Origin: Methanococcus maripaludis C5
Lineage (GTDB): Archaea; AGJL01; Methanococci; Methanococcales; Methanococcaceae
Length of the DNA: 64,000 bases
Direction of reading: 5' to 3'
NCBI RefSeq assembly: GCF_000016125.1
Contig: NC_009135.1
Location: forward strand, 992,001 to 1,056,000
Shown one piece after another: positions 42,489-61,395 of the stretch. The notes under the pieces are model-generated. The model was not told where the DNA came from. It saw only the letters and a program-made list of their open reading frames with translations, and did no database searches. The stretch's first letter is position 1; each line of letters opens with the position of its first letter. A program made the translations under genes and the position numbers.

Positions 42489-42900
42489 CAAAAATTGAAT
42501 TAAATAATAAAAAATTAAATGCATGCTTCCTGTTTAAAACAGTATGGTGCATAGCATGCATTTCGTGTTTCAACCGAAAACTGGTTATGGATCTGTGACG
42601 TTTTAGGCCAATTTTATCTAAAGAACCAATATGTTCTTTTAAACTCCCCAATATACCCCAGAAAAATTAATTCTGGGATAATATATTTTCTCTATAACGC
42701 AATATTTATTATTTTGGGGATTAATGTTAATAAAAATGGATTAAAATGGAAATATTGTAAAAAACGTTATTTTAAAGTTAAATAACCTTTTACCATTTAG
42801 TTGAAATTAATTGAAAATAAAGGATTAAAGTTATATAATTCTTTAAAAAGAATATTAAATAACATAATTTGATTAATGTGTGACTTTTTGGTGGGGAATT
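42489..42900. other. 412-base intergenic region
   Basis: No coding frame is supported here. It contains the hairpin listed at 42517-42563, then a very AT-rich promoter region for the pilin gene. Confidence 0.5.
42517..42563. repeat. Inverted repeat / long hairpin after SulP gene
   Basis: AAATGCATGC (42517-42526) is perfectly complementary to GCATGCATTT (42554-42563). The intervening 27 bases contain a second palindrome, CTGTTTAAAACAG. It starts 28 bases after the SulP stop codon and could be a terminator-like or processing structure. Confidence 0.6.
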
Positions 42901-56009: not shown

Positions 56010-56311
56010 TACCAATATATAAGTATTATGTTTTTATGCCAATTTTTGGAATTTCATAAAAAACAATTTAAAAGCTAGGTAGCTACATTATAATTTCAAA
56101 ATATCTTTTAAATTTTTTAACCATTATTTAATCTCAAAAAGAATTTTATTTAAATTTTTGAAGTATTTTTTATTAAAAGAACATTGAAATTCTTTAAAAA
56201 TTTAAAAAAATAGGTGAGGTCAAAAATGTTAAAGATTTTTTGCTAAAATCTTTATTATTACTATTTAATTATGTTTTCCAATGTTACGGCAATGGATTGG
56301 TATATTCCCAA

Positions 56312-56339
56312 ACATCTCAGACTTCTACTTCTGAGATGT
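56312..56339. terminator. 10-bp hairpin, terminator or small-RNA candidate
   Basis: ACATCTCAGA (56312-56321) is complementary to TCTGAGATGT (56330-56339) around the loop CTTCTACT. A GC-richer segment precedes it (56280-56311) in an otherwise AT-rich gap. It may end a short transcript or be an element of one. Confidence 0.4.
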
Positions 56340-56422
56340 CTTTAACTGTAGAGTTTATCTTATTTAAGTTTTCTGTATTTGAATTAAAGATTAATTTAAT
56401 ATATTAAGTTTAAGAAAATATT

Positions 56423-59670: not shown

Positions 59671-60261
59671 TTAATTTTTTATAAGTTCCCAGAATGAACC
59701 AATTACCATTCTGGCTTTATCGTCAAATTTTTTGTTAGTATAATATGAAACGAGAGGTAAGCCTTCAAATATTGAGCAAAAATGGATTGCGAGGGTATGG
59801 GGATCCAATTCTTTTTTGACTTCCCCCATTTCCTGTGCCAAAATTATTCTGTTAACCAATTTGTCTATAGCGTTTTCATATATATTATTATTGAATTCCC
59901 ATATCTTTGGAAATTTTTTTATTGCGTCAGAAAACGGTCCGAAGTATACGGTTTTCTCTTCACCTTTACCATATTTACTGAAATACCTATTTCTTATTAA
60001 AATCGCCTGTTCTATAAATTCAAAAATGGCATTTTCAAAACAGCTTTCTTTTTCAATACATGAAAGAACAGCTTTTCCATTTTCTTCGAGTATCGAGGTT
60101 ATTGTTTCGATGTAGAGGTCTTCTTTTCTTTCAAAATAGTAATAAAGACCCCCTTTTGAAATATTGCATTCTTTTGCAATTTCAGAAAGTGACGTTTCAA
60201 TATACCCTTTTTTAAAAAAAAGTTCTCTTGATTTTTCAAGGATCAAATTTCTTGTTGTCAT
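59671..60261 (-). CDS. TetR/AcrR family transcription regulator
   Basis: A 196-residue regulator. The N-terminal helix-turn-helix is well conserved (FFKKGYIETSLSEIAKECNI, followed by SKGGLYYYFERKEDLY). The C-terminal ligand domain is divergent. TetR proteins usually repress a nearby gene or themselves; the GATC-centred palindromes 150-260 bases upstream are candidate operators. The gene lies next to an RNA-like region. TATA-like TTAATATATTAA at 60279-60290 suggests a leaderless mRNA. Confidence 0.9.
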   Translation of the reverse strand: MTTRNLILEKSRELFFKKGYIETSLSEIAKECNISKGGLYYYFERKEDLYIETITSILEENGKAVLSCIEKESCFENAIFEFIEQAILIRNRYFSKYGKGEEKTVYFGPFSDAIKKFPKIWEFNNNIYENAIDKLVNRIILAQEMGEVKKELDPHTLAIHFCSIFEGLPLVSYYTNKKFDDKARMVIGSFWELIKN

Positions 60262-60401
60262 ATTTTTTACTCAATCAATTTTTAATATATTAAATAGTCA
60301 AAACTTAAAATTATATTTTAATCCATTATTACCCCTTCAAACTTATTTTCGGATTTTTCAATTTTGTCGTATTATGTTGCCTTTTTGGGATCATTATGGA
60401 A

Positions 60402-60516
60402 AACTATATATTTAAGTTCGATCTAATTAAGCTGGGAACGGGATAGGTAACCACACCGTGCACTTTTTTGATCAAATTGATCATAGTTTAGATCTAAATT
60501 GTTATTTTAGATCTAA
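60402..60516. promoter_or_regulatory. Promoter with repeated GATC palindromes
   Basis: A TATA-like AACTATATATTTA (60402-60413) is followed by TTCGATCTAA (60417-60426), then a GC-rich patch from 60431 (GCTGGGAACGGG, GGTAACCACACC), T6, the palindrome TTTGATCAAA (60467-60476), TTGATCAT (60477-60484), TTTAGATCTAAA (60487-60498) and TTTAGATCTAA (60506-60516). The motif TTNGATCTAA occurs three times. These look like operators for a dimeric regulator, perhaps the adjacent TetR. Confidence 0.5.
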
Positions 60517-60699
60517 TTCATAATTAACTATCCTTTTAACAGTGTTAGGGATTTATTTTTAAAACATTTTTTTAGTAGTTATTTTAATAAGGTTATTCGA
60601 AAAATGATAATTGTACAAAATGCGATTAATTGTTGCATGATCTATTTTTTAACCGGAAAATACCGTAAATTTAAATACTGGGATTTTTAGAATATTTAT

Positions 60700-60890
60700 T
60701 ACCCTGGAATTGCTGGTTCCGGGGGTTAAGGGGATATTAAAATGGAATAAACACGGAAAAATAGTTCCATTTCCAATATTGTACAAAGAGTGATATTGGG
60801 AAAAGATGGTTTTTGCATGAACGCTGTTTTATTCTTCATGCAAACTCCACATTTTTAAACCGTATCTATTTTTTTATTTTTTTAATTTCG
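60700..60890 (+). ncRNA. Candidate four-hairpin non-coding RNA
   Basis: Four stem-loops in a row: CCCTGGAA (60702-60709) with TTCCGGGG (60717-60724); AAATGGAA (60740-60747) with TTCCATTT (60765-60772); CCAATAT (60773-60779) with ATATTGG (60793-60799); TTTGCATGAA (60812-60821) with TTCATGCAAA (60835-60844). TATA-like AAATTTAAATAC (60667-60678) is about 25 bases before the first stem. Runs of T follow from 60865. No open frame is needed to explain the block. It resembles no RNA family I know. Confidence 0.55.
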
Positions 60891-60996: not shown

Positions 60997-61395
60997 ATGG
61001 ATTACAAACAGGGCTTTACGAAAATTACAATTCATGAAAACATCTTTGGTATAAAAAACTTTTTTCAAGATATTTCTGCGAAAGTAGATGATGTATCTGC
61101 AATAGAAATCGATACTCGAGGAAACTACATCGTGTTTCTAATTGGATTTTTGTGGTATATCTCTTCAAACATTCTTTTAATAGTTTCAAAAGAGGTCAGT
61201 TATTCTTTGTATTATACAATTCTTGATTTAAGAGCGTACCATGCGATAATGACGGTTTTAATTTTTATCGCTGCAATTTTTTCAACACAGATTAAAATAT
61301 ATGTTACAGGTTACAAGCCACTTATAATTCTTGGAAACTATTTTACAATGCAGAAACTATTTGAAATATTAAAAAACGAGTTAAATTTGAAGTAA
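60997..61395 (+). CDS. Two-helix membrane protein of unknown function
   Basis: A 132-residue protein. An N-terminal soluble part (residues 1-50) precedes two membrane segments at about 50-70 (VFLIGFLWYISSNILLI) and 85-103 (HAIMTVLIFIAAIFS), and a C-terminal helix ends at KNELNLK. No family recognised. The start ATG has AGTGGTTCAAA before it. It lies just after the RNA-like region. Confidence 0.6.
   Translation: MDYKQGFTKITIHENIFGIKNFFQDISAKVDDVSAIEIDTRGNYIVFLIGFLWYISSNILLIVSKEVSYSLYYTILDLRAYHAIMTVLIFIAAIFSTQIKIYVTGYKPLIILGNYFTMQKLFEILKNELNLK

Follow-up and report, generated by a model that had tools for sequence, protein, structure and literature searches.

A probable small RNA gene in Methanococcus maripaludis and a candidate family of dispersed intergenic RNAs

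Bacterial sibling small RNA (sRNA) families such as Qrr and LhrC consist of dispersed and tandem copies that have their own promoters and a common core structure and differ elsewhere. Sponge RNAs of the CsrB/RsmZ type expose a G-rich motif in linker and loops; no CsrA is known in archaea. The Hgc RNAs of Methanocaldococcus jannaschii are non-coding RNAs (ncRNAs) conspicuous in an AT-rich methanococcal genome. Small RNAs of archaea are poorly understood, and Methanococcus is a genetically tractable genus. In Methanosarcina mazei, sRNA162 acts in trans by masking a ribosome-binding site (PMC3600222). The RNA described here represents a new family within this known kind, archaeal intergenic sRNAs: judged from its sequence, a four-hairpin stretch of the M. 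maripaludis chromosome is very probably a genuine small RNA gene, with no protein product.

The window (the whole 64,000-base stretch analysed, 992001–1056000 of the 1,780,761-base chromosome; the genome, G000, also has a second small contig) holds this gene in a gap of exactly 735 bases, the length given in an earlier note, between the start codon of a TetR gene (60261) and the next ORF (60997). The features, in window coordinates, are as follows.

59671-60261, minus: TetR gene, divergent (Pfam TetR_N)
60385-60520, possibly to 60640, plus: upstream element with a TATA box, GCTGGGAACGGGAT..CCACACCGTGCAC, a T-run and GATC palindromes
60660..60677, plus: ncRNA promoter, BRE-like ACCGTAAA then TATA box TTTAAATA at 60670-60677 (direct reading)
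60701..60884, plus: ncRNA, predicted start at about A60701, 3' end inside the second U-tract, about 175-184 nt
60702..60724, plus: hairpin 1 (H1), 5'-terminal, CCCUGGAAUU/GGUUCCGGGG, stem 60702-60711/60715-60724
60725..60739, plus: single-stranded linker GUUAAGGGGAUAUUA (from alignments)
60740..60772, plus: hairpin 2 (H2), conserved loop motif AAACACGGAAAAA, stem 60740-60747/60765-60772
60773..60799, plus: hairpin 3 (H3), predicted fold, a feature of G000
60807..60849, plus: hairpin 4 (H4), loop CGCUGUUUUAUUC, main stem 60812-60821/60835-60844 plus a small lower stem
60869..60883, plus: terminator, two U7 tracts with one A between (direct reading)
60997-61395, plus: 132-aa ORF downstream of the ncRNA, without a Pfam match

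Read as sequence, ACCGTAAA followed by the TATA-like TTTAAATA makes a good archaeal promoter, with a predicted +1 near A60701 that puts the TATA box at the distance the earlier note had claimed for it. The T-runs it had placed at the end are likewise there, as U7 tracts at 60869-60875 and 60877-60883 within a 3' end that reads CTATTTTTTTATTTTTTTAA. Two U4 tracts suffice as a strong terminator in M. maripaludis (PMC8716108), a rule of at least two such tracts that the pair of U7 tracts satisfies. Fold z-scores against shuffles are −4.1, −3.7 and −4.1, with 0 shuffles as good, and among 220 random windows of 175 nt from the same 64 kb the sole lower z belongs to one overlapping the ncRNA; the predicted structure thus exceeds chance.

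A DNA search of 61 genomes found the ncRNA in four, all Methanococcus: G000 itself, G002 (83% identity over 263 nt, same gap as in G000), G003 (77% identity over 97 nt) and G004, where both ends match in the same gap and about 75 bases containing H3 and H4 are missing, which leaves a form of about 95 nt. The best-conserved parts across the four orthologues are the promoter, H1, the GGGGATATT linker, the H2 loop AAACRCG(G)AAAA and the U-tracts, the double U-tract being kept in 4/4. The four stem-loops originally described are all predicted (z about −4), but they do not fare equally: H3 is absent from G003 and G004 and weak or poor in G002, and the H2 stem is supported only loosely around a loop, AAACACGGAAAAA, kept in all four. 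H4 is paired at all ten main-stem positions in three orthologues (100%), with four of the ten pairs compensated on both sides and none broken; this test covers three sequences only, and 21/500 shuffles equal it, with slid controls far worse. The H4 sequence differs between G000/G002 and G003 around the kept loop CGCUGNUUU. Its loss from G004 together with H3 may mean either that H4 is dispensable or that the G004 copy is decaying. No open frame is common to the four orthologues, in keeping with the claim that the stretch holds no ORF. The orthologue pattern was not found in viral contigs, plasmid records gave no match, and the only match of the pattern in genome contigs, in an Odoribacter MAG, was taken as chance.

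Gene context is less constant than the RNA. In G003 the ncRNA follows two membrane-protein ORFs and precedes a convergent ORF; the TetR block is found there in inverted orientation at a distance of 4.4 kb. In G004 another gene lies between the ncRNA and the 60997 homologue. Neither the TetR gene nor the 60997 gene is therefore a constant partner, and these changes argue for action in trans.

The earlier note proposed a covariance search of Methanococcus genomes as a check. A model of the promoter, H1 and GGGGAU (R1) picked up additional loci in G000 and G002, and a small number in G003 and G004, so that family loci occur in the same four genomes. They lie between genes, frequently as tandem copies spaced 178-215 bases apart, and split into classes. 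In the largest, class B, the RNAs finish with a covarying hairpin whose apical loop is G-rich, as in GAACAGTTCAATTTTTCGGGGGATTTTTGAATTGTTC. Across 21 loci aligned to R1, H1 changes on both sides at 8/8 pairs, with 95.2% of cells paired in an alignment fitted to structure, which favours pairing; none of 500 shuffles reaches the observed value and slid versions pair at 27-67%. Put to the covariation test that the note had also named, the stems thus divide: H1 (8/8 pairs, 21 loci) and H4 (4/10 pairs, three sequences) are compensated, and H3 is unconserved. A GGG or GGGG run follows H1 in 20/21 aligned loci.

A refined model built from the aligned loci (R3) recovers 33 at E ≤ 0.01 (14 in G000, 13 in G002, 4 in G004 and 2 in G003) and none at E ≤ 0.05 in 32 other Methanococcales genomes (best E = 0.076). 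Twelve of the 33 lie outside the model, including two near-identical copies of model sequences and three leaders of WYL-domain ORFs; three (G002:C4:246428, G004:C1:202545 and G004:C1:447370) carry the class-B G-loop 3' hairpin, which was not modelled. The ncRNA at 60701 scores 91 bits with R1 and 75.9 bits with R3, by construction because it is one of the founding members, which is not so of the H1 covariation over 21 loci. It has the family's BRE/TATA about 25 bases upstream and 5' hairpin followed by GGGG(A). The G-rich apical loop found in the last hairpin of classes A, B and E is absent: the loop is CGCUGUUUUAUUC, which places the ncRNA in a separate class (F), which is single-copy and vertically inherited in four species. 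When a profile is built from the four orthologues alone, it finds other classes at E 0.001-4, mostly via the promoter; without the promoter they drop to about 8 bits, so that homology between classes rests on architecture and covariation and not on plain sequence. Common descent of all classes is therefore no more than likely. Conservation, structure and family are all read from sequence.

The window contains a second family member:

42510..42683, minus: family ncRNA, class D (R1 match 42638-42720, minus strand, 46 bits)

This RNA has orthologues at G002:C4:200541 and G004:C1:432641 and is convergent to a SulP-type transporter gene. Outside the modelled part it shares the H2 loop motif, as AAACACGRAA, with the 60701 ncRNA, and within the 64-kb window the motif occurs only in these two ncRNAs. 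Separately, a weak R1 match at 56298-56378 (minus strand, E 0.023) with a TATA-like box and a hairpin, ACATCTCAGA/TCTGAGATGT, is a possible further RNA gene. Elsewhere in G000, an intergenic region (L049, 1431-1775, on to about 2700) holds RNAs of classes A and B in tandem as well as more hairpins followed by T-runs, and may hold additional small RNA genes. A 6.3-kb stretch that is 99.8% identical between G000 (L084, 155-6479) and G002:C2 (L090, 1-6328) contains a disrupted WYL homologue along with two family RNAs. Near the RNA locus the two genomes are otherwise about 82% alike, and the stretch looks recently exchanged.

We favour, as the probable explanation, an independent sRNA gene that acts in trans and belongs, as one class, to a dispersed family that occurs, among the genomes searched, in Methanococcus only. 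A regulatory sRNA fits best because of the changing gene context, the open conserved loops and the G-rich linker; transcription, trans action and the contact segments are what we infer. The BRE and TATA box, a strong archaeal promoter by prediction, would drive a transcript of some 180 nt that begins near 60701 and stops at the double U-tract, near 60884. Its 5' end would form a stable hairpin followed by the single-stranded GGGGA linker, and two further hairpins would display conserved loops, AAACACGGAAAAA in H2 and CGCUGUUUU in H4. Through linker and loops the RNA would contact mRNAs or a protein in trans, with GGGGAUAUU, AAACACGGAAAAA and CGCUGUUUU as candidate segments for pairing with mRNAs. 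One search with the loop complement TTYCGTGTTT, dominated by coding sequence, found no mRNA target: the motif is commoner than its reversed control, and of the 30 sites fetched, 27 fall within open frames of at least 80 codons, an excess that we read as probably reflecting codon usage.

The main rival is an RNA that binds or sequesters a protein, in which the repeated GGGG(A) would engage an RNA-binding protein in the manner of a CsrB sponge; we regard this as possible, if unlikely. The G run that follows H1 in nearly every aligned locus recurs in the last loop of classes A, B and E, and a small WYL-domain protein of 96 aa offers a candidate partner, for the WYL protein RspWYL1 binds single-stranded RNA (PMC6547453), although that binding also required domains beyond the WYL fold (PMC6547453). 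G000, G002 and G004 have six close WYL homologues between them, each no more than 3 kb from a family RNA; two of the six are copies in a shared island, so that the six are not independent. Three of them have leaders with the class-B promoter and its upstream box TTTAACCCgatATATTGGTTTTGAT. The class F ncRNA at 60701, however, has no WYL gene nearby, and in G003, with its two family RNAs, there is no WYL homologue at E ≤ 0.01. Small WYL-domain ORFs adjoin family RNAs at L086 (1692-2627), L087 (1569-2504), L097 and L124 (1154-1750), followed in the first three by an ORF of 97-101 aa; in the WYL leader, a G-rich hairpin spans the WYL start codon. A larger, previously undescribed archaeal small-RNA system may be imagined, speculatively and with less confidence than the sponge: several sRNA classes with a common 5' hairpin plus GGGGA domain and a strong promoter, at 13-14 loci in some Methanococcus species, working with a small WYL protein of Sm-like fold encoded beside family RNAs under the same promoter box. 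If true, this would amount to an archaeal circuit with a dedicated RNA chaperone or regulator.

Other readings of the locus are considerably weaker than the trans-acting sRNA. The ncRNA might be a 5' leader or attenuator of the 60997 gene, with transcription from 60701 stopping at the U-tracts or reading on: the two lie on the same strand, and 113 bases separate the ORF from the second U-tract. The changing context makes such a role unlikely, since the intervening gene in G004 and the convergent one in G003 both break the arrangement, and in all three genomes an AT-rich sequence of its own is retained upstream of the 60997 ORF; a cis-acting leader or riboswitch was rejected for its differing downstream genes in G003 and G004, and we consider this reading very improbable. 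Hardly more credible, and marginally behind it in our estimate, is a decaying, functionless repeat among dispersed copies of a small mobile sequence. About 30 such copies exist, some in tandem at 178-215 bases, and one pair sits inside the 6.3-kb stretch nearly identical in G000 and G002, but classes that otherwise have little sequence in common all retain promoter, H1, GGGGA and terminator, with compensatory changes, and class F is single-copy with vertical inheritance in four species.

Least probable of all is a regulatory DNA region, in which TetR or some other factor has its operators and the palindromes fold as RNA by accident: palindromic GATC sites and a TetR gene do share the 735-base gap, but the palindromes belong to the separate element at 60385-60520, which has copies elsewhere, the RNA of G003 persists apart from TetR, and conservation is ordered as TATA, +25, hairpin and U-tract. 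Regulation of the ncRNA by TetR and the GATC palindromes, as suggested in the earlier note, is unsupported on the same grounds: in G003 the ncRNA has other genes around it and the TetR homologue is inverted and 4.4 kb off, and the palindromes sit about 180 bases upstream in that conserved element. The element is kept in G002 and G004, with further copies at G002:C4:224787, G002:C2:68021 and G004:C1:462690; the G002:C2:68021 copy (L060) also holds an MCM-like ORF. Pairing of the H2 loop (CACGG) with this element (CCGTG) involves 5 bases only and was dismissed as chance.

Known RNA families were also sought. Rfam 15 gave no match in the whole window at the gathering threshold, only sub-threshold chance matches near the ncRNA at relaxed thresholds, and none at E ≤ 1 for six loci with relatives, in agreement with the earlier statement that no RNA family could be recognized. 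No tRNA or tmRNA was found. A box C/D guide was rejected because boxes C (RUGAUGA) and D (CUGA) are both absent from 60701-60884, and an H/ACA guide because the H4 internal loop is only 2 nt and the post-stem ACA is present in G000 only, being lost in G002 and G003. No description of the ncRNA, or of an intergenic sRNA family in Methanococcus, was found in the open-access literature. Conservation, covariation and the absent Rfam match together support the original proposal of a stand-alone structured ncRNA of no known family.

A family with covarying structure, whose copies can be deleted singly or jointly, would make sRNA function directly testable in Methanococcus, and the linkage to WYL-domain genes suggests a candidate protein partner. 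The family resembles sRNA154 and sRNA162 of M. mazei in consisting of stand-alone structured intergenic RNAs of a methanogen, and differs from them in having no Rfam match and in being found only in Methanococcus. The Hgc RNAs stand apart similarly: again the family has no Rfam match, and no family locus occurs at E ≤ 0.05 in 14 genomes of the order's other family. Unlike the CsrB/RsmZ sponges, each Methanococcus RNA has only one or two G-rich motifs. The likeness to Qrr and LhrC lies in dispersed and tandem copies, own promoters and a shared core; against these stand an archaeal promoter, a U-tract terminator and unrelated sequence.
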